This document shows positions 6,799-56,990 of a DNA stretch of 64,000 nucleotides, in pieces (position 1 is the stretch's first letter; the number at the start of each line of letters is the position of its first letter). Under the pieces are notes generated by a model. It was not told the DNA's origin. It worked only from the letters and a program-made list of their open reading frames with translations, and did not search any database. This stretch comes from Loktanella sp. Its GTDB lineage: Bacteria > Pseudomonadota > Alphaproteobacteria > Rhodobacterales > Rhodobacteraceae. The position numbers were made by a program, and so were the translations under genes. The stretch spans positions 124,001-188,000 of the forward strand of contig JAFPBO010000031.1 of the NCBI GenBank assembly GCA_017390475.1, given 5' to 3'.

Positions 6799-8011
6799 CT
6801 TTGCGCAGGCCCGGCCCTTCTGTCAGCGCCAGAATATGCGGTCGCATCAGGCGGGCCACCTCGGCAAAGACCGGCACCGCCACCGAGTTGCCGAACTGCT
6901 TGTAGGCCTGTGTGTCAGAGACCGGGATACGGAAGCTGTCATTATAGCCCATGAGGCGCGCGCATTCGCGCGGAGTCAGGCGACGCGGATTGTTGCCCGG
7001 CCCCCTGCTGACAAGGATCTCGGATCCGTCTTTGTAGTATCGCGCTGACAGCGTCCGCGAGATACTGTCGCGGTCCACCAATCCAAAGCCAAAGCCGTTG
7101 CCCGCCGCTTTGTGCTTTGCCGCGTATCCCTGCAGATACTGCCAGAGCTTATCGCTGAGCGTGTACTTGTCGCTGACCCGCGCATCGCGGCCGACGGTGA
7201 AATGACTTTCCGGCGCTTCCGTCCCGTCTTCAGGGTGCAGCACATCGCGCATGCCGCGCCCTGCCCTGCCCGGCAGCACCAGATCGTCATAGGAGAACCC
7301 GGTGCTCTCACGAAAGCCGACCATCACGATCCGCTCACGGTGCTGCGGCACGAAATTGGCCGCATCAATGATCCGGGTGTGCAGTGTGTAGCCCAGCTCT
7401 TCGGTCAGCTTGCGCCGGATCACATCGAACGTGCGGCCCTTGTCATGGCTTTTGAGGTTCTTGACGTTCTCCAGCAGGAACGCCGCTGGGCGGTGGTGCA
7501 TCAGGATGCGCAGCACGTCGAAGAACAGCGTGCCTTGGGTTTCATCCTGAAAGCCGTGCAGCCGCCCCAGAGCGTTCTTCTTGGAAACGCCTGCAATGGA
7601 AAACGGCTGACACGGGAAGCCCGCGACCAGAACGTCATGCTCCGGTATGTAGGTGGCATCAACTTCGCGGATATCGCCCGCGATAGGTCGGTTGTCTGGG
7701 AAGTTGGCGTGATATGTCTTCTGGGCAAACGTGTCCCATTCTGAGGTGAACACGCAGCGCCCACCCGCGCTGGCCATCGCCTTGCGCAACCCGCCGATTC
7801 CGGCGAAGAGGTCGATGAAGGTGAATGCCCCTTCAGACTGCGCGGCCTTGTGCGTGTCGATCTGCATCCGCAGCAGGTTGATGACCCCGTCCCGCGGCAC
7901 TTCTTCGCCGCGCTTCCAGCGGTAAACGTGCCCTTCGGAGTAGCCCAGCACCTTTGCGGCCTCTGGCACAGACCAGCCTGTCTGCTGAATCAGCATCTCA
8001 AATTCGGTCAT
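6791..8011 (-). CDS. DNA (cytosine-5-)-methyltransferase with N-terminal HTH
   Basis: A 406-residue C5-cytosine methylase. Motif I is DLFAGIGGLR, the catalytic motif IV is GFPCQPFS, motif VI is ENVKNL, motif VIII is QHRERIVMVG, and motif X has QFGNSV. Residues 1-55 form an added helix-turn-helix (WSVPEAAKVLGYSEGHVYRW). In several type II systems such an extension lets the methylase repress its own operon. An 18-bp inverted repeat lies just upstream of the start and is a plausible operator. With Vsr and the MvaI/BcnI-like nuclease following, the target is probably CCWGG or CCSGG. Confidence 0.95.
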   Translation of the reverse strand: MTEFEMLIQQTGWSVPEAAKVLGYSEGHVYRWKRGEEVPRDGVINLLRMQIDTHKAAQSEGAFTFIDLFAGIGGLRKAMASAGGRCVFTSEWDTFAQKTYHANFPDNRPIAGDIREVDATYIPEHDVLVAGFPCQPFSIAGVSKKNALGRLHGFQDETQGTLFFDVLRILMHHRPAAFLLENVKNLKSHDKGRTFDVIRRKLTEELGYTLHTRIIDAANFVPQHRERIVMVGFRESTGFSYDDLVLPGRAGRGMRDVLHPEDGTEAPESHFTVGRDARVSDKYTLSDKLWQYLQGYAAKHKAAGNGFGFGLVDRDSISRTLSARYYKDGSEILVSRGPGNNPRRLTPRECARLMGYNDSFRIPVSDTQAYKQFGNSVAVPVFAEVARLMRPHILALTEGPGLRKVG

Positions 8012-41370: not shown

Positions 41371-42063
41371 ATGTATGATGATGATTTCGGGGGACCTTAC
41401 GTCTCGCCGGAACGAACCCGCGCGACGCGGATGTTTCCGGCGCGATCCCGTGCGAGTGGGCGAGGGTTCGTGATCGCGAAACTGCGTGCGGGAGCCGCTT
41501 GGCGGCAGCTCATCTTTGAAAGCGACCTTGAGCGGAAGTGTCTCTTGGTGCTGCTGTCGCAGAAAGCTGTCGTCAATATTTGGGATCAGCCGCCGCAGAT
41601 CACCTATCGAAACAAAGCGGGGAAGCCCACGTTTCATACGTTCGACTTTCTTGTCACGTTGGAGGACGGGAAAAGAATCGCTATCGCTGTTAAACCGGAT
41701 GGGTTGGTCGAACGAAATGGGTTCAACCAAGAGTTCGCGTTGATTAAGGCGCAGACCACCAAGCAGTTCGCGGACGACGCGCTACTCGTTACAAACAGTA
41801 GCTTCTCCGCGGCGGAAGTGCGCAATGCAGAACTGCTTCATATGTTCCGGCAGGCCGAGGATGTCGAAGCCGATGCGGCGGTCCATCAGATATTCCGAGG
41901 CATGAACTGTGAAAGGTCCCTAGGGCACGTCGTCGCTGCAACTGGCTTGAATGGTCGTGCATTTCGTGCGGGGTTCAAGGCGATCTTCGATGGGATCGTC
42001 CTGACGGACATGTCAGTTCCGGTGACCGAAGCTAGTATGCTGTCGATACCGGAGGTGCGCTGA
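41371..42063 (+). CDS. tnsA: TnsA-like transposon endonuclease
   Basis: A 230-residue TnsA-type nuclease, which cuts the 5' strands at the transposon ends so that the element is excised rather than copied. Catalytic residues by motif are Glu about 50 (FESDLERK), Asp about 92 (HTFDFLVTL) and Lys about 108 (IAIAVKPDG), an E-D-K set as in TnsA of Tn7. The stop and the tnsB start share one base (TGATG). Confidence 0.88.
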   Translation: MYDDDFGGPYVSPERTRATRMFPARSRASGRGFVIAKLRAGAAWRQLIFESDLERKCLLVLLSQKAVVNIWDQPPQITYRNKAGKPTFHTFDFLVTLEDGKRIAIAVKPDGLVERNGFNQEFALIKAQTTKQFADDALLVTNSSFSAAEVRNAELLHMFRQAEDVEADAAVHQIFRGMNCERSLGHVVAATGLNGRAFRAGFKAIFDGIVLTDMSVPVTEASMLSIPEVR

Positions 42064-44222
42064 TGGCAGTAAGGCTTCGCATCAGCAAATCGGATGCGGT
42101 GATCTTGGCCGGCACCGTACATGTGGTCAGCGCCGTCTCGGATAGCACGCTGGAACTGCGTCCCTTGGATGGAAGCTCAGACCTACTCTGCTTTAGTCAT
42201 GCTGACGTCAAGCACATGCTTGACGAGCGCAAGGCATCCATTGAGTACGGGTATTTTTCCAGTGCGCAAGCTGCTCGTCGAGCATTGGCGGGCAGTTCGC
42301 TCATCAGCCGGATGAGCGCCGCCGAGAAGGCTCAGGTTTTCCGCAAGCAGCTTTACGTTGAATGCTTTCTCGAAGCGGAAGCAAATGGTGAAGTAAGCCG
42401 TTCCAATGACCCATGCGTCGCATTCCTCCCTGAGTTGGGCAAGCGCGTCGAGACCAAGATTCTGGAGCAGATACGCCTTGGCCAGGATGGGGCAGAGCTT
42501 GGAAAGCTACTCGCCATGAAGCATCCGGGTCGGACAGCCCTCATGGCCTGGGTGCGGGAGTGGCAGAAAACACATGATCCCATGTGTTTCGTCAAAAAAA
42601 GCCGCTTTAACGGTGTCAACGCCAAGCGGGTCTCGTCTCAAGTCGAGAATATCCTGCAGATGGCGATCAAGACATTTCTACACCCGAACCGAGTCTACAT
42701 TCCTCACGTCGCGGATGAGGCAAATCGGGAAATTCGTGAGTTGAACAAGTCACTCGTGCTGAATGATCAGCTTCCAGAGCGGGAAGTATCCAAGAGAACC
42801 GTTTACCGTCGCATAGAGGAGTTGCACCAGTTCGAAACCTTTGCGGCACGGGAGGGGATAGCAAAAGCGAAGAACAAGTTCGGGCCCTATGGTCAGGGGC
42901 TCGAAATCGAAGCTCCGATGCAGCGCATCGAAATGGACGAGTGGCAAATCGATCTCCTCGCGTTCTTGGAAGATGCGGGTATCGATGTGAGCGACCCAAA
43001 GTTCGACGAACTCCGAACTGGGCGCTTCTGGATGTGTGTCGCTATCGATGCGGCAACACGGGTGATCTTGGCCATCAAGGTAGCAAGAACGCCCAATGTC
43101 GAAACGGCATTGGCAACCTTGTGGTTGGCCATGCGGAACAAGAGCGAGATATCAAGGCAGCTCGGGTGCAAGAAGGCCTGGAGCCAGCACGGCCACATCT
43201 TCAACGTGGTGGTGGATAACGGGTCTTCCTTCGTCAACCCGGAATTCAAAGCCGCCCTATCAGACCTCGGGATAGGCTATGAAGTCCTGCCAGCAGGCGT
43301 GCCGAAGTTGCGGTCGCGCATCGAGCGCGTCTTCCGAACTTTGGGCACCATGCTCATGCCGTTTCTGACGGGCCGAACGTTTGGCAACCCACAAGAACGC
43401 GGCGACTATCTGGCTGATCAGTATGTCGTACACACTGCTGACAGCATTGTGGAACTCATGGTGCGTTTCGTCGTCGATGCCTACCACCATCGCACGCATC
43501 GCGGCTTAGAGTATGCTACGCCCGCAGATACTTGGGATAGGTTGATGGGGCTATACGGATATAGCCCTCCCAAGTCGCCCCATGTCCTGCGCCATTTCCT
43601 TGGTATTCCTCTGAGACGTCAGCTTGGTCGGCACGGCGTACTTGTCTGCGGCATAGCTTACACCAGTCGCAATCTTGCGGACCTTTTTCAGCGTCGCGGT
43701 GCGCAACAGATCGACCTACGCATAGACCCAGAGGACATGGGATGTCTGTCCGCCTGGTTTGACGATGCATGGCATACGATTCCTGCGGGCCTACAGAATG
43801 CGCACGGAGTGTCACTCTCTGTTTGGGAAGCGACCATCCGGGATCTGCGCCGATCAAACAAGGCCGCGGCGCGTCTCCATATCGAGATTGTCGATGCGGC
43901 ACTCGAGCGTATTAAGCAAATCGACGATCATCAGCGTGCATGGCGTCAGATCGGCCCTCTGACTGTTTCCGCGAAAGATATTCGACGAGCGGAGCACGAG
44001 AGCTTCTTTGGGCTGAGTTTCGGCACTGTTCCGGGCGAGGTGGCCGAGGACTTTCACTCGACAGCGGGGACAAGCCTGACAGGCAATCTCGCCGACATTG
44101 CAGCGGCCAAGCCTTCGGACAGTGAGCGTCCGCCCCCAGAAAATGATGCTCCAAACCAATCCCAGCGGTCTGAAGATACCCAACCAGAATGGAGATTCAG
44201 CGATGACGATGAACACAAGTAA
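42063..44222 (+). CDS. tnsB: TnsB-like DDE transposase
   Basis: A 719-residue transposase of the Mu/rve integrase type that binds the ends and joins the 3' strands to target DNA. The catalytic triad is Asp 292 (IEMDEWQID), Asp 385 (VVVDNGSSF) and Glu 421 (RSRIERVFRTLG), with the standard 35-residue D-to-E spacing. An N-terminal DNA-binding region precedes this and a Mu-type C-terminal beta-barrel follows. The C-terminal tail (PPPENDAPNQSQRSED) probably contacts TnsC. The tnsC start lies inside its 3' end. Confidence 0.93.
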   Translation: MAVRLRISKSDAVILAGTVHVVSAVSDSTLELRPLDGSSDLLCFSHADVKHMLDERKASIEYGYFSSAQAARRALAGSSLISRMSAAEKAQVFRKQLYVECFLEAEANGEVSRSNDPCVAFLPELGKRVETKILEQIRLGQDGAELGKLLAMKHPGRTALMAWVREWQKTHDPMCFVKKSRFNGVNAKRVSSQVENILQMAIKTFLHPNRVYIPHVADEANREIRELNKSLVLNDQLPEREVSKRTVYRRIEELHQFETFAAREGIAKAKNKFGPYGQGLEIEAPMQRIEMDEWQIDLLAFLEDAGIDVSDPKFDELRTGRFWMCVAIDAATRVILAIKVARTPNVETALATLWLAMRNKSEISRQLGCKKAWSQHGHIFNVVVDNGSSFVNPEFKAALSDLGIGYEVLPAGVPKLRSRIERVFRTLGTMLMPFLTGRTFGNPQERGDYLADQYVVHTADSIVELMVRFVVDAYHHRTHRGLEYATPADTWDRLMGLYGYSPPKSPHVLRHFLGIPLRRQLGRHGVLVCGIAYTSRNLADLFQRRGAQQIDLRIDPEDMGCLSAWFDDAWHTIPAGLQNAHGVSLSVWEATIRDLRRSNKAAARLHIEIVDAALERIKQIDDHQRAWRQIGPLTVSAKDIRRAEHESFFGLSFGTVPGEVAEDFHSTAGTSLTGNLADIAAAKPSDSERPPPENDAPNQSQRSEDTQPEWRFSDDDEHK

Positions 44223-45171
44223 TCCCGAAGTTCGCCAGATCATTCAAGATATAAGATCCGCCTATGTGCCGACGTTAGCCTACGAACGTCTTGATGACTA
44301 TTTTGGTCAACTGCTCGAACAACGGCGTGCAGACCTCGACGAGGGCATCGTATCCGATCTCAAAAGTATCGCTCTCGTCGGTGGATCAGGGGCCGGGAAG
44401 ACGACGGCGATCCAGGAGTTGAGGCGGCGCTACCGGAACCGACTGGTCTGTGACGGCCCGGACGGCATCAACGAGATAGTCGGCCTCAAGGTGCCATCGC
44501 CAGCGACGATGAAATTCGTGGCGACGGCGGCCCTCCATGCCGCGGGTTACCCGCTCGTCCGCGATCGGTCAGCGGCTGTTATCTGGGGGCTCGTGAAACA
44601 GCAGTTCAAGTTGCGAAAAACCCTTTTCTTGCACATAGACGAGGCGCAGGATTTGGCTCAACATCAGACCGACAAGGAGCGGCAGGCCATCGTCAATACG
44701 CTCAAGTCCCTGATGGAAAACAGCCAATGGCCGGTCGGCCTGCTTCTGACTGGAATGCCCGGCCTCAAGTCGATCATCAATCAGGATGCGCAGCTAGCGC
44801 GTCGGATGTACCCGATCGAAATCGAGCGCCTGTCGCAATTCGCGGGGCAGGATCAGGTCCTTGGCCTTGTGGCGCGATACTGTGACAGGGCCAAGGTGCA
44901 GCGCGATGAAGACCTGAAAACACCCGAATTCGCTTCGCGCCTGATGCACGCGGCTGACTACGAATTCGGCCTTTTGGCACAGTTTATTGTTGAAGCCCTT
45001 ACGCGGGCTCTGCGCTCCGACGGCTTGGAAGCATGCCTTTCCAAACGCCACTTCTCGGAGGTCTACTTCATGCGGACCGCAGTCATGCCGGGGCTCAACC
45101 CGTTTCTTGCTGAGGATTTCATCCGGATCAATCCAAGGCAATGTTTCGATGACGGGCGCGATGATGAGTGA
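44203..45171 (+). CDS. tnsC: TnsC/TniB-like AAA+ ATPase
   Basis: A 322-residue AAA+ regulator that links target selection by TniQ to the TnsAB transposase. Walker A is VGGSGAGKTTAIQ (Lys about 66) and Walker B is FLHIDEAQDL (Asp about 146). The ATG at 44203 has GGAG eight bases upstream and lies within the tnsB 3' end; the longer frame from 44098 is not needed. Its stop overlaps the start of the second tniQ. Confidence 0.92.
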   Translation: MTMNTSNPEVRQIIQDIRSAYVPTLAYERLDDYFGQLLEQRRADLDEGIVSDLKSIALVGGSGAGKTTAIQELRRRYRNRLVCDGPDGINEIVGLKVPSPATMKFVATAALHAAGYPLVRDRSAAVIWGLVKQQFKLRKTLFLHIDEAQDLAQHQTDKERQAIVNTLKSLMENSQWPVGLLLTGMPGLKSIINQDAQLARRMYPIEIERLSQFAGQDQVLGLVARYCDRAKVQRDEDLKTPEFASRLMHAADYEFGLLAQFIVEALTRALRSDGLEACLSKRHFSEVYFMRTAVMPGLNPFLAEDFIRINPRQCFDDGRDDE

Positions 45172-47005
45172 CGCTGAAAGGCATGAACGGCAACTTGGGC
45201 TGACCGTTACCCCCTTTGCAGGAGAGGTCCCTGCAAGCATCGTTTCGCGGATAGCGGCGAGAAACGGGATTTTTCCGCGGGATCTTTGCTCAGATTTTGG
45301 TTTGAGGTGGCCGTTTCTTTGCTCGGGCTATCCAGACCAGCTGTCTGGGCTTGCCGATGTTGCAGGCCTCGACCGAGTGAGCTTGGCACGATGGAACCCT
45401 GAAAAGATAGGGATCGGACGTTATCGGGTCGGGCAGACCCGAAGCGGTACCGGCGTCTTTCGACGTACGGCAACACGGGTCTGTCCAGTCTGCATCGAAG
45501 AGGCGTTAGAAAAGGACGGGCGTCATGGTGCCCACCAGCTTCTGGAGTGGAATGTCATGTGCTTGCACGGCTGCGAGCATCACAAGGTGCCTCTTGTAGA
45601 GCTACCTCGTGCTGGGACCTCGCACGAAAGCTATGACGTTGTCGCCCAGATCGACCGGCACAGCGACCTGATGAAGAAGGCCGCAGATGCCGGCCCGAAA
45701 TATGCTCCTACCGCATTCGATGCGTATGTGAGGGGGAGGATCAACCATGGTCCGCAGGCGGATTGGCTAAGCAAGCTGGAGCTCAGTCAACTACATGGTG
45801 CTTGCCTGACCCTTGGAGCGACTATTTGCGAGTCGCCCGTTCACGGACTCGCTCATGTCGATCCTGATCTTGAGCGTGAGTTCTGCGTGGAGGGGCTTAG
45901 CGTTCTTTCCGCTGGGCCGGCCAGCCTAATGGCGTGCATGGAGGGGCTGAAATCCCGCCCCCGCGCTCAACGTTCTTATTTTTCGACAGACCTCGGGGCA
46001 TTTTACGTCTGGCTGCGAGCGGCGCATGGTGATGCGGAGGTCCAATCTATCATCGATTGCGTCCATGCGTTTGCAGTCCAGAACTACACGATGAAACCCA
46101 AGAAACGTGTGTTGGGCAGGCCGGTGCCAGACGTTCAACGCATGTCGTTTGAAACCGCCCGTGAACAGTCGGGGCTTAGTGTGGGGTTTCTTAAACGGCT
46201 GATCCGTCACATCGATAATCTCTCTGAGGCACAATCCACAGCGCTGACGGAAACGACGCCTGACCAGCTATCCAGAGCGATCGTTTTCTGGGGCGGGTTG
46301 AGAAATCTCAAATCCACGGCAATAGCGTTGAATGTGCACCCGACGCAGGTGAAGGGGCTGATTGAAAAAGGGATATTGCGCTCGATCCGGTTTGGAACCG
46401 CGTTGCGCTATGTCTTCATTGAGGATGTCGATCGGCTTTTGGCAAAAGCGGCTGCCTTGCCTGAACTGCCCGATGTCGGGGTCTTCCTTCCGCTTCGCGA
46501 TCATTGCCAAAATCAACGGATCGGACTGGTTCGCATCATCACTCTCTGGCAGGAGGGCAAGGTCGGCGGTTTTGTCCGGGGGGCAGACGCGATAGGACTT
46601 CAGGCGATCTATGTGCCGCAAGATGTGGACGTTGGCGTGCGCGACACCCCGACCGCCATGCGAGACCTCACGCCGCTGGAAGCCGCATCCTACCTGAAAA
46701 TTGGCGTCGGAGCCATTCGGGCGCTTCGGGATGCGGGCTACCTTGGTCACGCGAAACGCCTCAACGCAGATACCAATCATCGTCATTCCCTGATAACCCA
46801 ATCCAGTATTCGGGAATTTGAGGCGCGTTTTCTGACGCTTGGACAGCTTGCCACGTCGGCGCGGGTTGCCCCAATACATTTGGCGCGGCGGCTGGATAGG
46901 GAAGGGGTTCCGACAGTCACCTGCCGTGGCCGACACGTTCGCGCCTACGAGCGATCGCAAGTTGCAGAGCATGAGGTTGTCGCAAGGAGCATCAGCCATG
47001 GATGA
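45161..47005 (+). CDS. tniQ: Second TniQ-family protein
   Basis: About 614 residues. TniQ features are LTVTPFAGEVPASIVSRIAA, the zinc-binding RVCPVCIEEA and CLHGCEHHKVPL, and a C-terminal excisionase-like HTH (LTPLEAASYLKIGVGAIRAL). The start at ATG 45161 overlaps tnsC by 11 bases. Being in the tns operon, it may mediate a second targeting pathway, for example towards mobile DNA, while the tRNA-proximal copy handles the chromosomal site. This division of labour is inferred from other two-TniQ Tn7-like elements. Confidence 0.88.
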   Translation: MMSDAERHERQLGLTVTPFAGEVPASIVSRIAARNGIFPRDLCSDFGLRWPFLCSGYPDQLSGLADVAGLDRVSLARWNPEKIGIGRYRVGQTRSGTGVFRRTATRVCPVCIEEALEKDGRHGAHQLLEWNVMCLHGCEHHKVPLVELPRAGTSHESYDVVAQIDRHSDLMKKAADAGPKYAPTAFDAYVRGRINHGPQADWLSKLELSQLHGACLTLGATICESPVHGLAHVDPDLEREFCVEGLSVLSAGPASLMACMEGLKSRPRAQRSYFSTDLGAFYVWLRAAHGDAEVQSIIDCVHAFAVQNYTMKPKKRVLGRPVPDVQRMSFETAREQSGLSVGFLKRLIRHIDNLSEAQSTALTETTPDQLSRAIVFWGGLRNLKSTAIALNVHPTQVKGLIEKGILRSIRFGTALRYVFIEDVDRLLAKAAALPELPDVGVFLPLRDHCQNQRIGLVRIITLWQEGKVGGFVRGADAIGLQAIYVPQDVDVGVRDTPTAMRDLTPLEAASYLKIGVGAIRALRDAGYLGHAKRLNADTNHRHSLITQSSIREFEARFLTLGQLATSARVAPIHLARRLDREGVPTVTCRGRHVRAYERSQVAEHEVVARSISHG

Positions 47006-47424: not shown

Positions 47425-48078
47425 CTAAAATGCGAAAGTCATCTGTCGCGCAGCGACCGATGACTCGCGCTGCCAAACCCATGCGTCGAAGCTCCTTCTG
47501 GAGACAGACAAAAGATCGGCGGCACAGCAAAAAACAGTCTTCAGGAAATCGTAGTCATCTTCCATGACACCGACCCGCTTCGCAAAAGTTCGGACGTGAC
47601 GGTCAACTGCGACAGTATCAAGACCGACCAAGCAACTTAAGTAGTCCACGGTCTTGGGGCCGACGCCCCTAACCGACCTAAGAGGTGTCGTGCGGACATC
47701 GGCATCCTTCAGGTACGCCTTCAGGTCGCAAACGCTATCAATGGCTTCGTTGTCGAGGAAAAGAACAAGGGCGTTGAAGCGATTTATCTTTTCCCCGTGG
47801 GTCCAGTTTAGCAATTCGGATGTCCTCCCAAGCTCAACGATCTCCCGTAGGCCCGAAGTGTTTGACATTGTTGGGTAATTTTCCAAAATTGCCAAGACGC
47901 GCGGTCGAACCACCGAGTTGTAGTTCAGCCCCGCCTGGAGCACAGAATCTGCGACCAACGCGCCCATGTGGCCGTACGTAGGCCGGATTTCAAGGTGTGG
48001 TAAGTCAGCTCCCAACTCCCTCGCGTAGTTGGCGACGCACCTAGCTGCGACGAGCATCTGAACTGCCGAAGATTGCAT
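47425..48078 (-). CDS. HhH-GPD DNA glycosylase/lyase-like protein (OGG/Cap11-like)
   Basis: A 217-residue helix-hairpin-helix GPD protein. The hairpin and active site are SVRGVGPKTVDYLSCLVGL followed by DTVAVDRHV, placing a Lys (about 142) and an Asp (about 159) where OGG-type bifunctional glycosylase/lyases have their catalytic Lys and Asp. There is no C-terminal iron-sulfur Cys cluster as in Nth or MutY. It is the last of four minus-strand genes with the QueC-like enzyme. OGG-like proteins are known as ancillary genes of type IV CBASS, here apparently without a CD-NTase. The substrate is unknown. Confidence 0.82.
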   Translation of the reverse strand: MQSSAVQMLVAARCVANYARELGADLPHLEIRPTYGHMGALVADSVLQAGLNYNSVVRPRVLAILENYPTMSNTSGLREIVELGRTSELLNWTHGEKINRFNALVLFLDNEAIDSVCDLKAYLKDADVRTTPLRSVRGVGPKTVDYLSCLVGLDTVAVDRHVRTFAKRVGVMEDDYDFLKTVFCCAADLLSVSRRSFDAWVWQRESSVAARQMTFAF

Positions 48079-48080
48079 GG

Positions 48081-48722
48081 CTACCCGACCTTTGCTTTGG
48101 GATGCGCGAGATCCGCGTCCTGTAGCGCACGGAGCCGCTCAACACAATTGGGACAGGCACCACACGGAAAGCTACTTGCCGCCTGGCATGAGTAAGTCCG
48201 TCCGATTGGTACACCTAAGCGGATTGCTGCTTGCGCAACTTCCGTCTTTGAGGAGTGCCGGAAAGGTGAATGGAAGCGAACTGGGCCGATGTTCTCGATC
48301 AGCCCATCCAGCTTGTTCATGAACTCGGCTGTGCAGTCGATCTCCTTGGCGTGATTACTGTTGATGAAGCCAGTATACACGTCAGAGATTTCCAGTGTTT
48401 GTGCGCGGGCTGCGGCGGCAGCGAAGAACAGCATTGTTCGGTAGGGTACGTACAGGTCATCGTCTGCAACTTCCTCAGTCCATAAATCGGCCTCCTTGAT
48501 CAGCCGCGATTTCGAGCCAAGGAAAAGATCGGAAAGGTTGCAGCGTTCTGGTTTGCGCATTCCCGTGGGTAGAACTTCGTTCACCCTATTCCACTCCATG
48601 TCGATGCAGTGCTGGCCGTAGTCAAAAAAGATAGGAAAAACGTCTACTTTATCTGAAAATAGGGAATATGCTACGGTCGTTGAATCTAGGCCGCCAGAAG
48701 CTAGAAGAATGACTTTTTTCAT
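48081..48722 (-). CDS. QueC-like enzyme (7-cyano-7-deazaguanine synthase family), defence-type context
   Basis: A 213-residue QueC homologue. The ATP pyrophosphatase P-loop is LLASGGLDSTTVAYS; zinc-binding Cys residues are in YSCQAASSFPCGACPNC; the substrate region includes HSPFRHSSKTEVAQAA. ATG 48722 overlaps the upstream stop (ATGA) and gives the canonical start MKKVILL; the 17 residues upstream in the longer frame are unlikely. Housekeeping QueC usually lies with queD/queE; here it is among a PfkB-deoxyribosyltransferase fusion and an OGG-like protein inside a transposon. QueC-like proteins in type IV CBASS (Cap9) and Qat (QatC) act in defence, and that is the likely role here. Confidence 0.88.
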   Translation of the reverse strand: MKKVILLASGGLDSTTVAYSLFSDKVDVFPIFFDYGQHCIDMEWNRVNEVLPTGMRKPERCNLSDLFLGSKSRLIKEADLWTEEVADDDLYVPYRTMLFFAAAAARAQTLEISDVYTGFINSNHAKEIDCTAEFMNKLDGLIENIGPVRFHSPFRHSSKTEVAQAAIRLGVPIGRTYSCQAASSFPCGACPNCVERLRALQDADLAHPKAKVG

Positions 48723-50056
48723 TGCTGCTCCTTGAGTAAATCCGAGAGCGCCACGAACAATGCGTTCAGACACGTATCGAGGTTATCCGAGTAGATAGCG
48801 CTTCCGCCGATAACCATAGTATTGTCGTTCTGTCGCCGCGGGTCGAAAGTCACCACCGGCTTCTTGGAAGCCATCGCCATCCCCATTTCGATCAAGGTGC
48901 CGGGGTCGCGTTCCAACGGGATCGCGAACACTATTGAGCACACATCCAGCAACGCTATGTCCGCTGCGTAAGTTTTGAGGAGCGTGGGCCCCGAGCTGCC
49001 TAGGGGCAGTTCGCCGTTTTCGACGACCGGGCGGCGCACTGTAAAATTGTGGTAGCTTAGAGCTTCGACCGCGTGTTCGATCTCAGGAGTGTTAAGGTAG
49101 GAGAAATCAGGCGCGGCGAGATAGATCTGGAAACGCTGTCGTTCATGCCACGGCAGGATAGTTCCTCCGAGGTTACGCATCTCATCGAGGGAGAGTGTGA
49201 GTTCCCGCTTCGTGTCTCGCCGGAAGTCGTCAGGAAATGTTGTCAAAGAGTAGACTGTAGCGGCTCTGGCGCCGCGCCATCCCGCCTCGATCCAACCACG
49301 GACACGATGGCCAAGCATGACAGCAGAATAGACATCTCCGACGCCGACGGAGTTAACTGTGTTTGACAACGTGGCTGGAATGTTTTCGACGTCATTGGTG
49401 CGCAAATCGAATAGGCGACTTCCTCCGCGATTCTCCTTGAGTAGGAAAACTTCGGCACCGAGGCTCTTTGCGCTTTCGAGCATGGCGTTGACAGAAGTGC
49501 TACCAGTTCGTTCAAAGAGCGGTGACGACGTTGAGATAATAATCGCACATAGCCGTCCTGAGAATTCATCTAGAACAGAAAAATCGTCCGTGCCATAAGC
49601 AATATCGAAGCTGACGCTGGCTGTCTCACTGAAGCAAGCGTGCACTGCGGAGAGATCATAAATACCTGGGAAGACGAGTATGTCTTCGTATATCGACAGT
49701 GAACCACCTACATCGCGGATTGTGACAGATTTCTCACTCCTCAGGAGGTCCTCGTATCCCTGAGCAGAAACCTCAGTGGGGTCGCCAATAACCATCACGT
49801 TCGGCGCCCCCGAGACTTCTCCTAGCCAGATTAACTCAATACAACCGTGCGCCGCTAGATAGGCTCGGGCCTGTTCAACCATATAGCTCGGGCATATGGC
49901 CGCAACTGAATAGGATAGATCGCAGGCCCAAAGCCCGCGCGCTGCATGTACGACGCCGCCAAGGCGTAATTTGCATGGGACATCTTGGCGGGAGGTTGTG
50001 AAGTCGACGACAATCTCTCCAACAAGAAGAAGCGGGTAATCTTCGTTCGTGTTCAT
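48719..50056 (-). CDS. PfkB-like kinase-nucleoside 2-deoxyribosyltransferase fusion
   Basis: A 445-residue two-domain protein. Residues 1-295 resemble PfkB/ribokinase sugar kinases, with the catalytic motif NSVGVGDVYSA (Asp 241) intact but the N-terminal substrate-binding part divergent. Residues 305-445 resemble nucleoside 2-deoxyribosyltransferase (IYLAAPDFS, ADIALLDVCS, then GTLIEMGMA with nucleophile Glu about 390). The pair suggests nucleoside binding or phosphorylation plus base exchange or hydrolysis. It overlaps both neighbours by four bases, so it belongs to the QueC cassette. In phage defence it might deplete or alter nucleotides; this is inference. Confidence 0.8.
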   Translation of the reverse strand: MNTNEDYPLLLVGEIVVDFTTSRQDVPCKLRLGGVVHAARGLWACDLSYSVAAICPSYMVEQARAYLAAHGCIELIWLGEVSGAPNVMVIGDPTEVSAQGYEDLLRSEKSVTIRDVGGSLSIYEDILVFPGIYDLSAVHACFSETASVSFDIAYGTDDFSVLDEFSGRLCAIIISTSSPLFERTGSTSVNAMLESAKSLGAEVFLLKENRGGSRLFDLRTNDVENIPATLSNTVNSVGVGDVYSAVMLGHRVRGWIEAGWRGARAATVYSLTTFPDDFRRDTKRELTLSLDEMRNLGGTILPWHERQRFQIYLAAPDFSYLNTPEIEHAVEALSYHNFTVRRPVVENGELPLGSSGPTLLKTYAADIALLDVCSIVFAIPLERDPGTLIEMGMAMASKKPVVTFDPRRQNDNTMVIGGSAIYSDNLDTCLNALFVALSDLLKEQQ

Positions 50057-50415
50057 TGGGGTGTGAAGTCGGCTGTAATGAATGCGAACGGCTGCAAGCC
50101 GGACTCTGTCACAACGCCGACATAGGTTTTGCCTTCCTTGAGGCAGCCGGCTAGGTAGTTGAGACTTGTCGGCAAAGCTCCAATTTTCATCCCATTACCG
50201 TTTGTAGCAAAGATACGGCCTTCAAGCATAATTGAAAGGACGGTGTCAGCGGCTGGGACGGTGTTGTTTGCTGAAAAAAAATCGCATTGCTCAATCTCTT
50301 CTAACTTCGCCGAGAAGGCTTGGCTGCAGCGGTCACTACCGCTCGAGCCGCCTGTGCCATCTGTCTTTTTGGCTCCGCTATAATCCGTAAACTTGCCCGA
50401 ACCTGAGCTTCCCAT
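50053..50415 (-). CDS. Small MGSSGSG-starting protein, first gene of the QueC-like cassette
   Basis: A 120-residue protein. The first 27 residues are Gly/Ser-rich and likely disordered (MGSSGSGKFTDYSGAKK). The rest appears to be a small beta-rich fold with conserved-looking segments SIMLEGRIFATNGNGMKIG, LPTSLNYLAGCLKEGKTY and three Cys. Removal of the initiator Met would expose Gly2. It overlaps the fusion gene by four bases, so it is cotranslated with it. The family is not named. Its start invites comparison with QatB-type proteins that partner a QueC-like enzyme; it may be the protein substrate of that enzyme. Confidence 0.72.
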   Translation of the reverse strand: MGSSGSGKFTDYSGAKKTDGTGGSSGSDRCSQAFSAKLEEIEQCDFFSANNTVPAADTVLSIMLEGRIFATNGNGMKIGALPTSLNYLAGCLKEGKTYVGVVTESGLQPFAFITADFTPQ

Positions 50416-50989: not shown

Positions 50990-51883
50990 TCAGTCTTCTA
51001 TATTCTCTATGCGAGTCGCTAGGCTGTCCGCAAAGGCCTTAACAAAAGCGCGCGCCATCGCCGAAAACGGTTTGTTTGGTTCGCAGTAACGCTTCAAAGC
51101 ATCGACACGTCTTAATGCATTTCTTATCGCAAATTCCGATCCGCCATGGGCAGCGTCTTCAGCTAGGTCATTCTCGATTTCTGTAGCCTTCAAGCGCATC
51201 TCGCGAAGGACGCCTGATCTCAACTGTACGAGGTGCGTACGGTTCAGGGCGAAGACATTAATTGTAGCAAGAGCACGCCTTGTAGAGGCATAGTCCACCA
51301 GAGAGGGGAGCACGATTGAATAAGTTGTGCCCGTTGACCAAGTTAGATACTGCTCGGGGTTGTCGACCGTAGGGTCAAGAATATCGTGATCTTCGCCGGA
51401 TAAGGAGTCGCTTTGTACGAAAGCTCTGGCTCCTGAAATGGGGAAATGATTTCCTTTCCCTGCTGTCTCAGTCGGTTTTTTTCCCTGCAAGACCGCGTAT
51501 TCGGCTTCGGTCGTGGTTGTGGTGATAAGATGTTGGCGCCGCCGCTGATTACATCCCGCACATGAAGGCAGCAAATTTTCCCACACCAGCGCTAGCCACC
51601 AATACCCGCGGTGTAAGGGTTCACCATCGACTCGTCCCTTAGGCCGGAAATGTTCGACCTCCATTCCATCGCCAAGCTGAAATTCGCAGTAAGCGCATTT
51701 ATAATCGAAGAGCACGCCGAGAGAAGTTTTCACGTCGAACTCTTTGTATTTCGAGAATTTATATGATGCCGTCCCGGTGCTAGCATAGTGCGCTACGGCC
51801 TCGTCCCGTTCTTTCAAAACGGCGGCTGAAGGTTTGCTCAGAGATGCTGGAGGAGTAACCGAACTACGTTTGACGTGCCGCAT
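50990..51883 (-). CDS. HNH endonuclease, Septu PtuB-like
   Basis: A 297-residue HNH protein. The zinc and catalytic block is YKCAYCEFQLGDG (Cys 63 and 66), EVEHFRPKGR (His 78), YWWLALVWENLLPSCAGCNQ (Cys 108 and 111). This pattern is typical of PtuB in Septu and of HNH effectors of related ATPase-nuclease systems. The start shares a base with the stop of the preceding ATPase gene. It presumably cuts phage or host nucleic acid when released by its ATPase partner. Confidence 0.87.
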   Translation of the reverse strand: MRHVKRSSVTPPASLSKPSAAVLKERDEAVAHYASTGTASYKFSKYKEFDVKTSLGVLFDYKCAYCEFQLGDGMEVEHFRPKGRVDGEPLHRGYWWLALVWENLLPSCAGCNQRRRQHLITTTTTEAEYAVLQGKKPTETAGKGNHFPISGARAFVQSDSLSGEDHDILDPTVDNPEQYLTWSTGTTYSIVLPSLVDYASTRRALATINVFALNRTHLVQLRSGVLREMRLKATEIENDLAEDAAHGGSEFAIRNALRRVDALKRYCEPNKPFSAMARAFVKAFADSLATRIENIED

Positions 51884-54096
51884 TAAGGAATTGACCTGAG
51901 TGCTGCGACGACCTCTTCGACCGCCTCAGCGCGTAGCTCTGTTCGAGACTTTCCATCGAGTTTCTCCCGCTCTGTAAGATAGCGCTCAAGCGCAGCCTGC
52001 ATGATCTGCTGAGATGGGGCATATCCCAATGACAGGCGATCAATCATTGCCTTTGTCTGCTCTGATATTTGGATGCCAGTTTCGCCGGTAAGCTTTCGAC
52101 GAGCGTAGTCGTTGGCTTCCCTCAGCAGGTGTAGTTCCAGGCCCGGATCAGCCGTACTCGCTAGGCCGAAATAGTCTGAAGTCAGCAATTGCTCAGCTGT
52201 CATGCCGCGGATGCTCGGAAGGTCTCGAAGCTGGCGGACTTCGCGACCACGGCTGCGCTGAAGCACCACGACTTCCCCATCGTCCATCCCTCTCAAACAC
52301 AAGGGGTCATGAGTCGTCGCGATGAACTGGACCTTCGGAAGCACACGTCGAAGTGACCCCATGACTTGCATTTTCCAGCGCGGATGCAAGTGCGTTTCTA
52401 TTTCATCGATCAACACTACCCCCTGTGCTTCTTCGAGATTAACAAAGTACTTCGAGAACTCCCGAAGCATGTCGACTGTCATCGTGAAGACTGATCTATA
52501 GCCTTCACTTAGCGCTTCGATGGAGGTCGAGCGCCCATTCGCATTTACTTTGATCGTCTGGCCATCTCTGACAAGTTCATCGTTGTCATCCATCGCAAGA
52601 ACAATACGCAGCGCGGAAGCGATTTTTTCAAACTGGACATGAGTTCTAGAACTTAACCAGTCGTCCGGATAAGGGATCGCGGCCAACGGATCAAAGAGAG
52701 TTTTCACACGAGATGCAGCACCGCCTCGGTAGTCGCGCTTTTTCGGATCAAAGTATCTTCTGGGGCCGTATCCAAGAACGACAGTTGCTTGGTCTGAGCC
52801 CTCGAAAGAATTCGAGTTTGGGTCGAATTTGAAGAGCGAGGTTTGCGACGTATGATGAAATCGAATGTGAGCGCCCATGGGTTTTTGGTCAAGTTGGTCA
52901 AACCGATCACGTTCGTCACTTCTTACGGCTGCCGGAAGAAATTTTTCGAGTTTTTTGCTTTCCTTTTTCCCAATCAGGGCTAAGGCAATGGCTGAGAGAA
53001 TGCTTGATTTTCCTGTAGAGTTCTCTCCTAGGATCATCAAGCATGGGGCGCCAGCGCGATCCGACCTGCTCGCGGGTAGCGTCAGTCTTAGTGCGTCGAT
53101 TACTTTGAAGTCTAGTACCGTAATTTGACGGATTTCTTGGTTCGAAGCGAAGAATTGCTTTGGACGCCTAGCTAAACGGCTGTCGAACGACGGCGCATGC
53201 CAATTAATCATGCGCGGAGTTGTCGCTAGGTCTCTATCAAGTAAGCGCTGGAAGCCATCCAGCAGGCGAACGCGTTCATCTAGGCTCAGCCGACGGATAT
53301 AGGATCTTAAATTATCTGCAAAGCGAGATGGATTGGAGCGTAGCAGTGTTGGAGGTAGGGCACGCTGTTCACGGCCTAGGCGCTTGCATATTTGTGCCAA
53401 TGCTCCCGCATGGAGCGCACTAGGTTCTTGCTGCGCAAATCCAAGGTCAGTTGAAGATACTAACCTATCCGCTTGGACGAACACGTCATCTAGTACCATT
53501 CGCCGGCTAATCACTAGCGAATCCCGGTTGAGTTCGAATATGTCGATGGTTGCGCTGCCCTGGGGAGTGATCGGCTCAACGAGGCCATCGCAGCGGAACA
53601 TTAGGTGCTTGCTGGGATCGTCTTTACAGGGGTCCAGCAGGAAGCGTCGCTCTTGCCGATTCACAGAATCGTATGTGGCAAGAAAGTCGGCACGCTTGCC
53701 GTTAACTGGGAACCTGTTGTCTTTGGCTTTTTCACAATAGGCGCATACTGCATGCAGGTTTCGCCACTCGAACGCAAGCCATAGGTAATAATGACTATCA
53801 AGATCGACTGCGTCTCGCACATAGCGGAGGGGCCTGAAATGCGTTACCTTAAGATGGTATTCGCCGCCTTCACTGTCCTTGGTGGTCTGCTCGCAGAAAG
53901 CACAAGCTCCATTGAAGGCCTCAATTAAGTCTTGCTTCAGAGAGGTGTCAAAGAATAGGGATTCATCTAGACTGTCGCGTCGAGAACGCCTTTCTATCGG
54001 ATCGCGCCGGAGGAATTCAAAAAGGCGCTGCTTCTCTGCGAGCACAACTGAAGAAGTAAGAAAAGTGGGCGACTCTCGTCGATATAAGCGTCTCAT
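51883..54096 (-). CDS. Septu-like AAA/ABC-type ATPase with an added N-terminal HNH domain
   Basis: A 737-residue protein. Residues 60-130 form a second HNH-like module (CAFCEQ with Cys 65/68, VTHFRP with His 86, VCAYCEKAKDNRFP with Cys 118/121). Residues 320-640 form an SMC/OLD-type ATPase: LMILGENSTGKSSIL (Lys about 363), ALSEGYRS signature-like segment, VVLIDEIETHLHP Walker B, and FIATTHDPL. The C-terminus is helical. In Septu, PtuA is the ATPase sensor and PtuB the nuclease. Here the ATPase also carries its own HNH module, giving two nuclease folds per pair. Confidence 0.87.
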   Translation of the reverse strand: MRRLYRRESPTFLTSSVVLAEKQRLFEFLRRDPIERRSRRDSLDESLFFDTSLKQDLIEAFNGACAFCEQTTKDSEGGEYHLKVTHFRPLRYVRDAVDLDSHYYLWLAFEWRNLHAVCAYCEKAKDNRFPVNGKRADFLATYDSVNRQERRFLLDPCKDDPSKHLMFRCDGLVEPITPQGSATIDIFELNRDSLVISRRMVLDDVFVQADRLVSSTDLGFAQQEPSALHAGALAQICKRLGREQRALPPTLLRSNPSRFADNLRSYIRRLSLDERVRLLDGFQRLLDRDLATTPRMINWHAPSFDSRLARRPKQFFASNQEIRQITVLDFKVIDALRLTLPASRSDRAGAPCLMILGENSTGKSSILSAIALALIGKKESKKLEKFLPAAVRSDERDRFDQLDQKPMGAHIRFHHTSQTSLFKFDPNSNSFEGSDQATVVLGYGPRRYFDPKKRDYRGGAASRVKTLFDPLAAIPYPDDWLSSRTHVQFEKIASALRIVLAMDDNDELVRDGQTIKVNANGRSTSIEALSEGYRSVFTMTVDMLREFSKYFVNLEEAQGVVLIDEIETHLHPRWKMQVMGSLRRVLPKVQFIATTHDPLCLRGMDDGEVVVLQRSRGREVRQLRDLPSIRGMTAEQLLTSDYFGLASTADPGLELHLLREANDYARRKLTGETGIQISEQTKAMIDRLSLGYAPSQQIMQAALERYLTEREKLDGKSRTELRAEAVEEVVAALRSIP

Positions 54097-54285: not shown

Positions 54286-56388
54286 TCACCTTGGGAGTTT
54301 CAATCGCTCACGATACACGCCAATACGCTTTCGGGCACGATCAACCACATCATCATAGTGCAGCAGCTCTGAATATAGTTGACCAATAGCATACTGGGAC
54401 GTTGGTTCCATAATGTTGTCCGTATTGAACCACCCCTTCCCTCCTGGAAGCGGCTTGTAGCCCCGCAAGCGAACAGTGTTAATCGTATCGCCAATTAGGT
54501 ACCCGTAAAACTTCTTCAATTTACCATTGGATTTTGCCGCGAGAATGGATGCGTATTCCATTAGATCATTGTCGTGATCATCTAGGCTCACACCTGGTGC
54601 CTTAAACTCAACAATCACTACAGAACCTTCCTCATGAAATAAGGCAATGTCGGGCCGACATGCCTTGTTTTCATCCGTGGTGCGAGCTAGCAGCGCATTA
54701 ATTTGTTCATCAATACCAGCTTCGAATAGAGTATCATTGCCCCACTTGATCTGGCTGAGCGGCTTATCCGAAGCGATGTAGTCGAAATAGTGATACTCTT
54801 CGCTCAAGAGCCAAACATCGTGGTCAGCCACTTCGCTGCTATCTTTTCGCATAGGGAAAAAAATGTTGTGAATGAGCGCTTCATTCCTCTTCCGTTTTCC
54901 CTGCTGCAAATCAGTTTGCACCCTCAGTAGTTCTTTTACAGCCATAGCTAAAACTTCGATCATATTAGATCGTCGAACCACTAACTGCGAAAGGTTGGCC
55001 ATATCCACAGTTTTTAGAGATGCCGTGAACTTCCAAGATATGTCATCGACTTTGCGCCGAAAGTCATCACTATCCGGCTCAAGTTGCTCGATGGCTTCTT
55101 TCATCGACAACAGGCTGGCAGTTTCATCCACCACCTTGTCTTGCAAGTTCTTTAGCGCCCGCTTTGCTATACTGGACGGCGTGTCACCGAACGTAACTCG
55201 TGTATTCGAGTGGGACAGCATTTCTTCCGATACCCCAAAATGGTGGCCAACTTCCGACACGATCTTGTCACGGGACCAGTCAGGAGGCGTTATTAACTCT
55301 TGAACCTTGTCATCTAGCTCGGCGTAAATGTCTTCGAAACTGATCAGTGAGCCATCGAATAAGTCAACACTCCCGTTCTCTTGCGGAATTTTGTCAAACC
55401 CGTCCCGCTGTTCATTCACACCTTCATCAAGTAACGTTCCTTCGACAAGAATTATGTGATAGGAGCCTTGAATTGCGTTGTTCTCAATTGCCTTTGCCCG
55501 AAGGTACCGCTTGGTTATGTCTTCTGCGATTGCAGACTTGGCACACAGTCCGACAACATTCTTCGGCAAAGGATATATGCGCTCATCAAGCTTATAGTGT
55601 GTCACGCTCAGCGAAGCGTGAATGGTCTGATCGCCTTCCACATGCACAACGTCTAGACTGCTTACTGAGGTGTGCACAGGTATGTCAGATGCGGTCAAAA
55701 TCGAGCTCGACTGCACGCCTTCCAGATCGCTCTCAAACTCAATTCTAAAACTCCCAAGAGCGTCTCTAAGGCTCACAAATCTCTGCAGTGCGCTGAACAA
55801 AACATATTGCTTGAGCGCAGCGGCTTCAAACCACTCTTGAACGAAGGGAACGGTGAATACCGTATCTCGAACCTTTGGCAATACTCCCGAAAGTTTCATG
55901 CTCGTTCCGAGCTCACCGCTTTTATGCAGAGTAATCTGGAAATCGGTCTCTTCGATTTCTTTTCTGTTTTCTTCAGCAGGCAAGTATATGCGGTACTTAT
56001 TGCCATCTTTAGAATACACAGACGATAATGACAACTTTGAGAAATGATGAAAGAATTGAACTCGACCCGCCCCTTTGCAGTTACCTATACCCGGAATACT
56101 TAGGTCATCTTTGTATGACGTGTCCTTTGTAAGAAACGCCTTTAGCTGATCTGGCCCAAGGCCACACCCGTTGTCCACACATTCGATTTCTAAATCGTAT
56201 TCATGGCCAAGCAGGTCGGTTCTCCGAGCCTTAACCAAAAACTTGATTTCAAGGTTTAGATCGTCCTGTGTGGTTGCGCGTCTAATCAAGAAAGCATCAA
56301 TAGAGTTTGCCATCAATTCATCAACGACGACCAAGGCATTCTTGCTCTTGCGAGTGTTTTTGAGGCTGCCCCGGATGTCTAAAGTCAT
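54286..56388 (-). CDS. GHKL ATPase-PD-(D/E)XK nuclease fusion, candidate defence protein
   Basis: A 700-residue protein. Residues 15-130 are a GHKL/HSP90-MORC-like ATPase: VVDELMANSIDAF (N box), CVDNGCGLGP (G1), GIGNCKGAG (G2). A transducer-like region and helical middle follow. Residues 590-650 hold a nuclease-like core: CRPDIALFHEEGSVVIVEFKAPG, with Asp and E-x-K in order. A nucleotide-gated clamp joined to a nuclease suggests DNA sensing followed by cleavage. It is separated by 189 bp from the Septu-like operon, with no gene between. No named system is assigned. Confidence 0.8.
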   Translation of the reverse strand: MTLDIRGSLKNTRKSKNALVVVDELMANSIDAFLIRRATTQDDLNLEIKFLVKARRTDLLGHEYDLEIECVDNGCGLGPDQLKAFLTKDTSYKDDLSIPGIGNCKGAGRVQFFHHFSKLSLSSVYSKDGNKYRIYLPAEENRKEIEETDFQITLHKSGELGTSMKLSGVLPKVRDTVFTVPFVQEWFEAAALKQYVLFSALQRFVSLRDALGSFRIEFESDLEGVQSSSILTASDIPVHTSVSSLDVVHVEGDQTIHASLSVTHYKLDERIYPLPKNVVGLCAKSAIAEDITKRYLRAKAIENNAIQGSYHIILVEGTLLDEGVNEQRDGFDKIPQENGSVDLFDGSLISFEDIYAELDDKVQELITPPDWSRDKIVSEVGHHFGVSEEMLSHSNTRVTFGDTPSSIAKRALKNLQDKVVDETASLLSMKEAIEQLEPDSDDFRRKVDDISWKFTASLKTVDMANLSQLVVRRSNMIEVLAMAVKELLRVQTDLQQGKRKRNEALIHNIFFPMRKDSSEVADHDVWLLSEEYHYFDYIASDKPLSQIKWGNDTLFEAGIDEQINALLARTTDENKACRPDIALFHEEGSVVIVEFKAPGVSLDDHDNDLMEYASILAAKSNGKLKKFYGYLIGDTINTVRLRGYKPLPGGKGWFNTDNIMEPTSQYAIGQLYSELLHYDDVVDRARKRIGVYRERLKLPR

Positions 56389-56465: not shown

Positions 56466-56990
56466 ATGTTCGGGGCAACGGGTTGCTTGCGCTGCCTAGA
56501 ATACCACTTGCCGCGTGCAGTTTGGGTGATCGGCATCTGCTTGCCTTCTCCCCTGACCGAGGTGCTGCACATCCATGGATCGCTGTTGGGCGAGGCATCA
56601 GAGATCGTCCTGGGCCACGGCTGGGAGCCAGAGAGCCGAGAGAAACTGCCCAGTCACATCAACGAGGACACGGACACCAGGGTCGCTGGCGGCTACAACC
56701 TGATCGACGACTACTTCAGCGAAACCTTCAAGCCGACGGAGAAGATCATCGAGCGCAACCGCGCCTTCTTCGAGAGCTTGCACGATGTGACGGAGGTCTT
56801 CGTCCTCGGTCACGGCATGGCCGAATTCGACCGGTTCTACTACTTCGAGATCCTAAACTTCGTTCCTAAGTCAACCCGATGGCCTCCGCCATCCTACCAC
56901 GGCAACGGGCGCGGCAGGATGGCGGAGGCCGTCAACGAGATCGGGATCCCTATGGAAAGGGCCACGTTCCATGCGCTCGATCGTCTTTGA
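56466..56990 (+). pseudogene. AbiH-like abortive infection gene, truncated
   Basis: The frame contains EVLHIHGSLLGEASEIVLGH and later FVLGHGMAEFDRFYYFEI, the two blocks typical of AbiH-family phage abortive infection proteins. The usual N-terminal half is missing, and the sequence after FYYFEI looks shifted or replaced. Length is 174 residues against more than 300 in the family. It lies just inside the right transposon end, as a worn former cargo gene. Confidence 0.6.

Follow-up and report, generated by a model that had tools for sequence, protein, structure and literature searches.

The window analysed here, a stretch of 64,000 nucleotides from a Loktanella sp. (contig JAFPBO010000031.1, positions 124,001 to 188,000), contains a cassette of four genes that includes a member of the QueC family. 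In a check of the window's open reading frames (ORFs), all four lie on the minus strand at 47425-50415 and form one operon, tightly packed as the first-pass annotation had described: the junctions of the small gene with the second gene and of the second with queC are 4-nt overlaps, and the gap between QueC and the fourth gene is 2 nt. The products are a small protein with a glycine- and serine-containing tail, a fusion of a PfkB-type kinase domain with a nucleoside 2-deoxyribosyltransferase (NDT) domain, the QueC-family enzyme and an OGG-like helix-hairpin-helix (HhH) protein (Table 1). The GTG-start QueC frame of the ORF list reaches 48773; the ATG-start QueC spans 48081-48722.

To place the cassette among relatives, a QueC alignment was made from the window protein and three homologues in a plasmid collection, from Cupriavidus necator (L002), Neotabrizicola shimadae (L003) and Proteus mirabilis H63 (L004). 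Scanned against genome and viral contigs, it returned 59 genome and 54 viral loci, of which 56 (L007-L062) and 12 (L066-L077), respectively, are 56-85% identical and were kept as relatives. The other 3 genome and 42 viral loci encode distant QueCs and were set aside; the three genome loci (L063-L065) showed no partner genes with the cluster-4 profiles introduced below. With the window and L002-L004, the kept loci make a set of 72 (subtype I), which represents one QueC subtype by construction, as its members were found through QueC, with the other three genes left unselected. Profile searches of these loci recovered the small protein in 68, the NDT in 71, QueC in 72 and OGG in 70, and all four genes stand in the same order and on the same strand in 66. 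Loci L022, L050, L059, L071 and L076 are incomplete where contig ends cut them, and in L056 an apparent deletion leaves a fused gene that begins as dGTPase-like and ends as NDT; two further genes, OGG in L027 and NDT in L073, are broken across two frames. In L056, from Bradyrhizobium, the fused gene lies at 6459-7004 and reflects an apparent deletion or a misassembly, and QueC and OGG are retained there without the small protein and NDT. Many of the 72 loci are mutually related; across a thinned set of 43, pairwise distances are correlated between the four proteins (r=0.74-0.92, none of these values being attained in 500 permutations), which shows joint inheritance of the four proteins. The cassette is thus conserved as a four-gene unit more than chance would allow, and the earlier view of these genes as one system survives the comparison of gene order.

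The small protein is ~100-130 aa long in most loci. Its tail motif, MGS(S/T)xSGx(F/L/I)(S/T)DY, is present in 66 of 68 members, and G2, S6, D11 and Y12 are invariant across 59 distinct sequences, with all four Gly codons in use at position 2 and, in two of the genes, a GTG start codon placed at that Gly. The starts for the motif count were picked with the motif itself as the pattern; in a check independent of the motif, start codons fall at the same place. The predicted structure assigns a predicted local distance difference test (pLDDT) score below 50 to residues 6-8 and 12-26 and ~90 from residue 31 onward, and the tail is apparently disordered in this model. Structure comparison of the predicted model gives the remainder a HIRAN fold. 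According to passages of PMC6265450, the HIRAN domain of HLTF binds DNA 3'-OH ends, and from the modelled fold we infer that the small protein may be a DNA-end-binding protein. The window member has no Pfam match, and a profile of the small protein found a single match among PDB sequences, to an S-layer protein (E=0.0029), that was unconvincing.

The window QueC matches Pfam PF06508 (E=3.4e-30) and the PADLOC QueC model (2.2e-25). Its PP-loop and Cys cluster are intact, as first annotated, when the profile is aligned to the solved structures of QueC and Cap9, of which 2pg3 (canonical QueC) scores 5.5e-16, 9nto (Cap9) 1.7e-13 and 3bl5 (Bacillus subtilis QueC) 8.3e-12. The Cys signature is CQx6CxxCxxC (CQAASSFPCGACPNC). 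The SGGLDS and PYRT motifs are kept, and E(I/L/V)DC replaces YPDC in 72/72 QueCs, all of which retain the guanine-reading Asp. In Cap9, as described in PMC13279940, stacking on the base is the role of the Tyr, and the Asp recognizes the Watson-Crick edge of the base; PMC13329287 describes E. coli QueC as inactivated by a Tyr-to-Ala change in YPDC.

In the window fusion protein, residues 311-410 match PF05014 (E=1.3e-12) and the PfkB match is only 0.14, reaching 2.9e-12 in L147, a relative from the cluster-4 branch; against solved structures, the fusion profile scores 1.9e-7 with NDT and 0.001 with ribokinase. The PfkB motif GVGD occurs in 68 of 71 fusion proteins, the other three being cut or broken, and the NDT motif D(P/A)GTxxExG occurs in all 71, as DPGT..E.G in 70 and DAGT..E.G in L020. 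We assign the two domains, on these sequence matches, as putative PfkB and NDT. A search of isolated phage genomes for PfkB-NDT gave no match. The OGG-like protein scores 2.1e-4 with the PADLOC OGG model, a weak match, and E=2e-4 with MjOgg (3fhf). GxGPKT and DRH are found in 70/70 members, and the Lys and Asp that the first-pass annotation had singled out align with those of MjOgg, which we take to be its catalytic pair.

A second branch of QueC proteins offers a comparison. PF06508 'cluster 4' adjoins PfkB-NDT in ~89% of cases and has been read as purine salvage (Libby et al. 2026, PMC13329287), in a paper whose text does not name OGG. We assembled 15 cluster-4 loci with readable upstream DNA, a 16th (L155) being cut off: L005, L006 and L143-L147 were found through PfkB-NDT in plasmids (7 of 11 cluster-4-like plasmid matches), and L156-L158, from viral contigs, and L159-L163, from 5 of 398 genomes of the phylum, were found through QueC. 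A small gene, PfkB-NDT and QueC stand in a row in 15/15, and within the fetched stretch there is an OGG-like gene in 12/15 and a nitroreductase-like gene in 11/15; the partner profiles drew on 3 to 7 of these 15 loci, which leaves 10 independent small-gene matches out of 15. The small proteins begin M(S/G/T)G in 14/15 (for example MSGSGGSYLG, MTGTSGSS and, in Haloarcula, MGGGGSS), with the start chosen at the Gly motif where several were possible (L156, L158, L160, L162, L163). The Roseivivax small gene is missing from the annotation shown for its record. Cluster-4 QueCs have HxDG, and six of the seven aligned carry the zinc signature CHx5CxxCxGCxK, the Haloarcula protein (L143) being without it. 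By analogy, the published 'purine salvage' branch may be re-read as the same kind of system as the window cassette. Other features of the branch include the nitroreductase-like gene downstream of QueC (L006, L145-L147, L156, L157, L159-L163), possibly an extra tail- or base-modifying enzyme; a 211-aa small protein on the Haloarcula plasmid (L143, 3398-4033), which seemingly has two copies of the C-terminal domain after MGGGGSS; and a VUT-family gene, annotated for queuosine salvage, that adjoins the cassette of a mobilizable Roseivivax plasmid (L006, 7976-8515).

The distribution of the cassette points to mobility. Cassettes are found on plasmids, in prophage late regions and beside a Tn7-like module; ten of the loci, alphaproteobacterial and viral, have upstream of the cassette a homologue of the portal gene of L044, and PHROGs names portal and tape measure at L044, as in prophage late regions. 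Among 384 other genomes of the class, a single one carries PfkB-NDT (E up to 1e-40), and none of the same-genus (1) or same-family (3) genomes sampled does. The flanks of 20 of the 56 genome loci, those that are long, non-prophage and matched by a control region in their own genome, were scanned with PADLOC at E up to 1e-20, using ORFs of at least 200 aa (119 of 120 flank, 117 of 118 control). Control regions were housekeeping ones, centred on canonical queC or tgt and in one case on a weak PF06508 match. The flanks matched 195 models against 7 in the controls, a figure that counts models, which are redundant, and not proteins; among the matches listed, the best single flank model was dGTPase, with 4 of 119 proteins. 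A dGTPase-like family stands beside 12/72 loci in varied orientation, L013-L015 being near-copies, and the 20 scanned loci include four of these 12 (L019, L020, L025, L061), in agreement with the four PADLOC dGTPase matches. The dGTPase name comes from this PADLOC count and a reading of the sequence, and PHROGs calls the L009 protein 'unknown function'; an annotated dGTPase overlaps QueC in the Moraxella cluster-4 locus L005. The pattern is that of an accessory, mobile defence gene set, and by context, mobility and analogy the cassette looks like a phage-defence system.

The window itself has such a setting. Septu ptuB- and ptuA-like genes (50990-54096) adjoin the cassette directly upstream on the same strand, and a Tn7-like module (41371-47005; PF08722, PF00665, PF05621, PF06527) lies on its other side on the opposite, plus strand. 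Of the proposal that a Tn7-like element rich in defence genes carries the cassette, the module and the Septu genes stand; carriage is only likely, because a search around the module for Tn7-like end repeats gave no convincing pair and left the ends of the element unplaced. Farther along, a 700-aa protein next to Septu (54286-56388) has weak HATPase and HSDR_N matches, no PADLOC match and only a weak PHROG of unknown function, and an AbiH-family match at 56466-56990 covers the C-terminal part of the profile only and is probably a fragment.

Table 1. Features of the cassette and its neighbours in the window
Feature	Position	Strand	Description
Small tail protein	50053..50415	-	120 aa, begins MGSSGSGKFTDY; Gly/Ser tail and predicted HIRAN-like domain; proposed QueC substrate
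N-terminal motif, codons 1-12 of small protein	50380..50415	-	MGS(S/T)xSGx(F/L/I)(S/T)DY; Gly2 predicted to be exposed once Met is removed
HIRAN-like globular domain, small-protein residues 31-120	50056..50325	-	Predicted structure
Putative PfkB-type kinase domain fused to nucleoside 2-deoxyribosyltransferase (NDT) domain	48719..50056	-	445 aa
QueC-family ATP-PPi enzyme	48081..48722	-	213 aa from ATG; SGGLDS, PYRT, EIDC for YPDC, C(x)7CxxCxxC
OGG-like HhH DNA glycosylase/lyase	47425..48078	-	217 aa; GVGPK and VDRH kept
PtuB-like protein (Septu)	50990..51883	-	PADLOC PtuB 3.5e-88
PtuA-like ATPase (Septu)	51883..54096	-	PADLOC PtuA 1.7e-238
TnsA, Tn7-like module	41371-42063	+	Pfam scan
TnsB, Tn7-like module	42063-44222	+	Pfam scan
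TniB/TnsC, Tn7-like module	44098-45171	+	Pfam scan
TniQ, Tn7-like module	44987-47005	+	Pfam scan

Host genomes bear on which base such a QueC could use. We examined 51 genomes, the window's and the hosts of 50 of the 56 genome loci (all except L014, L015, L050, L054, L056 and L059). A canonical QueC (E<1e-50) exists beside the cassette in 33 of them and was not found in 18, the window's genome included. QueE was sought at E up to 1e-10 in 29 hosts, these 18 and 11 others; it was found in 10 of the 11 with canonical QueC, one of which (G015) was a source of the query, and in 0 of the 18, again including the window's. The QueE profile missed G002, which has a canonical QueC, and matched four other hosts only at 1e-14 to 1e-20, and a divergent QueE could escape it; some hosts are metagenome-assembled genomes (MAGs) whose absences may reflect incompleteness, completeness being known for the window's genome only (99.99%). 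PF01242, the QueD family, is absent from 16/51 hosts and has one match (65.9 bits) in the window's genome. TGT is present in 28 of the 29 hosts tested, in the window's genome as a single match on contig C39 (the window's contig being C19), and the VUT transporter is present in 24 of the 29, including 17 of the 18 without canonical QueC; the hosts lacking canonical QueC look like queuosine salvagers. The SMODS-type cGAS/DncV-like nucleotidyltransferase (CD-NTase, PF18144), whose absence had been noted at the cassette, has no match elsewhere in the window's genome either, and is matched in 10/51 host genomes, in G014 ~5 kb from a cassette. The genome of a Chelativorans that carries a cassette also has a canonical queE-queD-queC set beside TGT-like and DndB-like genes (L121, 11-4369), an arrangement resembling a Dpd cluster.

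Tentatively, and at a little under an even chance, we read the cassette as a mobile anti-phage system built around an N-terminally modified DNA-end-binding protein. Judging from family and motif, the small protein would lose Met1, and the QueC-family enzyme would activate a carboxylated guanine-like base with ATP and join it to the N-terminal amine of the tail, a step modelled on Cap9 acting on its CD-NTase and on the proposal for QatC and QatB. PfkB-NDT might make, sugar-load, phosphorylate or remove the base. If the predicted fold is right, the HIRAN-like domain would bring the tagged tail to DNA 3' ends, for example those of phage replication or damage intermediates, and the OGG-like glycosylase and apurinic/apyrimidinic (AP) lyase could attack the DNA there. 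The first-pass annotation had the nucleoside-processing fusion replace the CD-NTase, a role that should be reassigned: the small Gly/Ser-led protein, with its HIRAN-like fold and conserved tail, and not PfkB-NDT, most likely stands in that place.

Several observations weigh against this reading. Pfam HIRAN (PF08797) is matched by 0 of 51 small-protein members, which have only chance-level Pfam matches; hhalign of the subtype I protein to five HIRANs is weak (probability 12.5, E=0.0023; the cluster-4 protein reaches 79.0), and Thr takes the place of the Arg in the HIRAN motif GYVPR. The small gene of L060, near a contig end, is without the tail motif, the Azospirillum cluster-4 protein (L144) is without a Gly start, and most cluster-4 small proteins start MSG, which would make the acceptor Ser and not Gly. 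In the enzyme, the base-stacking Tyr of Cap9 is Glu, and canonical QueC (2pg3) outscores Cap9 as nearest solved relative. In the flank scan, the control model mad3 matched 7/117 proteins, above any single flank model. Lastly, Cap9 uses 7-carboxy-7-deazaguanine (CDG), and 18/51 hosts, the window's included, seem unable to make it by the known route, because neither canonical QueC nor QueE was found there. The conjugated base may be something other than CDG, salvaged, or brought by phage, and the idea that the chemistry is solely that of Cap9, with CDG, was set aside. It is a long shot that the system is armed by the phage itself, with CDG in such hosts coming only from the QueD/QueE of an infecting phage that makes 7-deazaguanine DNA, the cassette QueC loading it onto the HIRAN tail, PfkB-NDT making a protein-linked (deoxy)nucleotide, and the capped protein blocking phage DNA 3' ends or marking them for the OGG-like lyase. 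If true, a protein-nucleotide conjugate would be at work at DNA ends, and the literature searched showed no immunity of that kind.

Other explanations place the activity elsewhere in the cassette. PfkB-NDT could be a toxic effector whose NDT domain hydrolyses NAD+ or (deoxy)nucleotides on infection, with HIRAN, QueC and OGG sensing or licensing it. Retron-Eco1 reportedly hydrolyses NAD+, and its effector is said to be NDT-like. The kept NDT catalytic motif, the dGTPase-like family at the 12 loci and the dGTPase overlapping QueC in L005 would suit such an effector, as would the retron partnership of NDT-like genes described in part of PMC12548924. It would leave the invariant tail and the constant QueC partnership unexplained, and a PfkB GVGD kept in 68/71 is odd for a mere depletion toxin; we consider it unlikely. 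Alternatively, the products could supply a modified deoxynucleotide for DNA, akin in idea to Dpd and phage modified-base pathways, with QueC altering the base, NDT adding deoxyribose, PfkB phosphorylating and OGG excising the modified or the normal base. The trio of QueC, NDT and kinase would suit a dNMP built step by step, members of the OGG and HIRAN families work on DNA, and a dGTPase could lower competing dGTP; yet the cassette has no further nucleotide kinase or polymerase, the dGTPase-like family is at only 12/72 loci, and the tail motif would not be needed, which makes this account quite improbable.

Purine or deazapurine salvage, in which QueC and PfkB-NDT would process a nucleobase for metabolism with no part in defence, as Libby et al. 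read cluster 4, is improbable to the same degree. All three activities belong to nucleoside-metabolism families, a VUT-family gene adjoins the Roseivivax cassette, and VUT occurs in 17 of the 18 hosts that lack canonical QueC. Against it, QueC and PfkB-NDT are regularly partnered by a HIRAN-like protein and a DNA glycosylase, the locations are patchy, mobile and defence-rich, and 33 hosts already hold a canonical QueC. Least credible, to the point of being very nearly dismissed, is a housekeeping preQ0 synthase with unrelated neighbours, the cassette QueC serving queuosine in the window's genome. As the first-pass annotation had warned might be the case, it is indeed the sole PF06508 protein in that 99.99% complete genome, which has Tgt. 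No queD or queE is among the seven cassette and adjacent proteins scanned. The enzyme is hardly a housekeeping synthase, however, because no QueE was found, the active-site Tyr is Glu (YPDC to E(I/L/V)DC in 72/72, at the Tyr whose change to Ala inactivates E. coli QueC), and a canonical QueC accompanies the cassette in 33/51 hosts; the VUT transporter suggests salvage.

How new is the system that we favor, with its modified DNA-end-binding protein? A search of open-licence literature yielded nothing that pairs a HIRAN domain with QueC, or Cap11 with OGG and CBASS (cyclic oligonucleotide-based antiphage signaling system), and on NDT or PfkB with defence and QueC the one paper bearing on the cassette, among the matches listed, was PMC13329287. 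The label of an undescribed system therefore holds in part: the conserved unit was not in that literature, whereas a PfkB-NDT-linked QueC branch is already listed in PMC13329287. QueC enzymes modify the N-terminus of a partner in immunity, as shown for Cap9 and proposed for QatC; the cassette would be a third and cluster 4 a fourth QueC lineage with a small dedicated partner having an exposed, conserved N-terminus. At ~100-130 aa, that partner makes intact-mass tests simple, and the cassette suggests that nucleobase-protein conjugation and the recognition of DNA ends are connected.

The closest known systems share parts of this design. An OGG-like protein belongs to type IV CBASS, and the relationship to that system proposed at first is borne out through QueC (PADLOC 2.2e-25) and OGG (2.1e-4). 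The cassette QueC shares with Cap9 the PP-loop, Asp and zinc Cys residues, an OGG-like partner is present, and a partner has an N-terminal Gly, exposed in CBASS (MGGS) and predicted to be exposed in the cassette (MGSS or MGST). Unlike type IV CBASS, the cassette has a HIRAN-like substrate candidate, an extra PfkB-NDT fusion and Glu for the base-stacking Tyr, and it is not type IV CBASS because it has no SMODS CD-NTase and no TGT-like (Cap10) gene. With qatABCD it shares a QueC-family enzyme and a dedicated partner (QatB) with a disordered, Gly-first tail (MGTS). QatB is all-helical, whereas the cassette partner is HIRAN-like, and QatC has ~400 aa with Thr/Thr for Tyr/Asp, against 213 aa and Glu/Asp; neither the KAP NTPase family of QatA nor the TatD nuclease family of QatD was found among the seven cassette and adjacent proteins scanned. 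For want of QatA and QatD and by its other partner fold, the cassette is not Qat.

Retron-Eco1 likewise has an NDT-family domain in a defence locus, but the cassette NDT is fused to PfkB, and no reverse transcriptase is among the proteins scanned. The predicted fold of the small protein resembles the HIRAN domains of HLTF, Rad5 and, by structure, HamB of Hachiman, although the term HIRAN is absent from the Hachiman paper; unlike these, the small protein has no Pfam HIRAN match, a conserved Gly/Ser tail and no helicase. Nearest is cluster 4, where QueC adjoins PfkB-PF05014, with a homologous small protein upstream and an OGG-like gene nearby, neither of them among the features reported for it in the accessible part of PMC13329287. 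It differs in CHx5CxxCxGCxK and HxDG, against CQx6CxxCxxC and EIDC in the window, and in the nitroreductase-like gene of 11/15 loci, which the window cassette does not have. By analogy, then, the cassette may be described as a QueC-based N-terminal conjugation system of the Cap9 and QatC kind in which the partner is new and a nucleoside enzyme and a DNA glycosylase are added.

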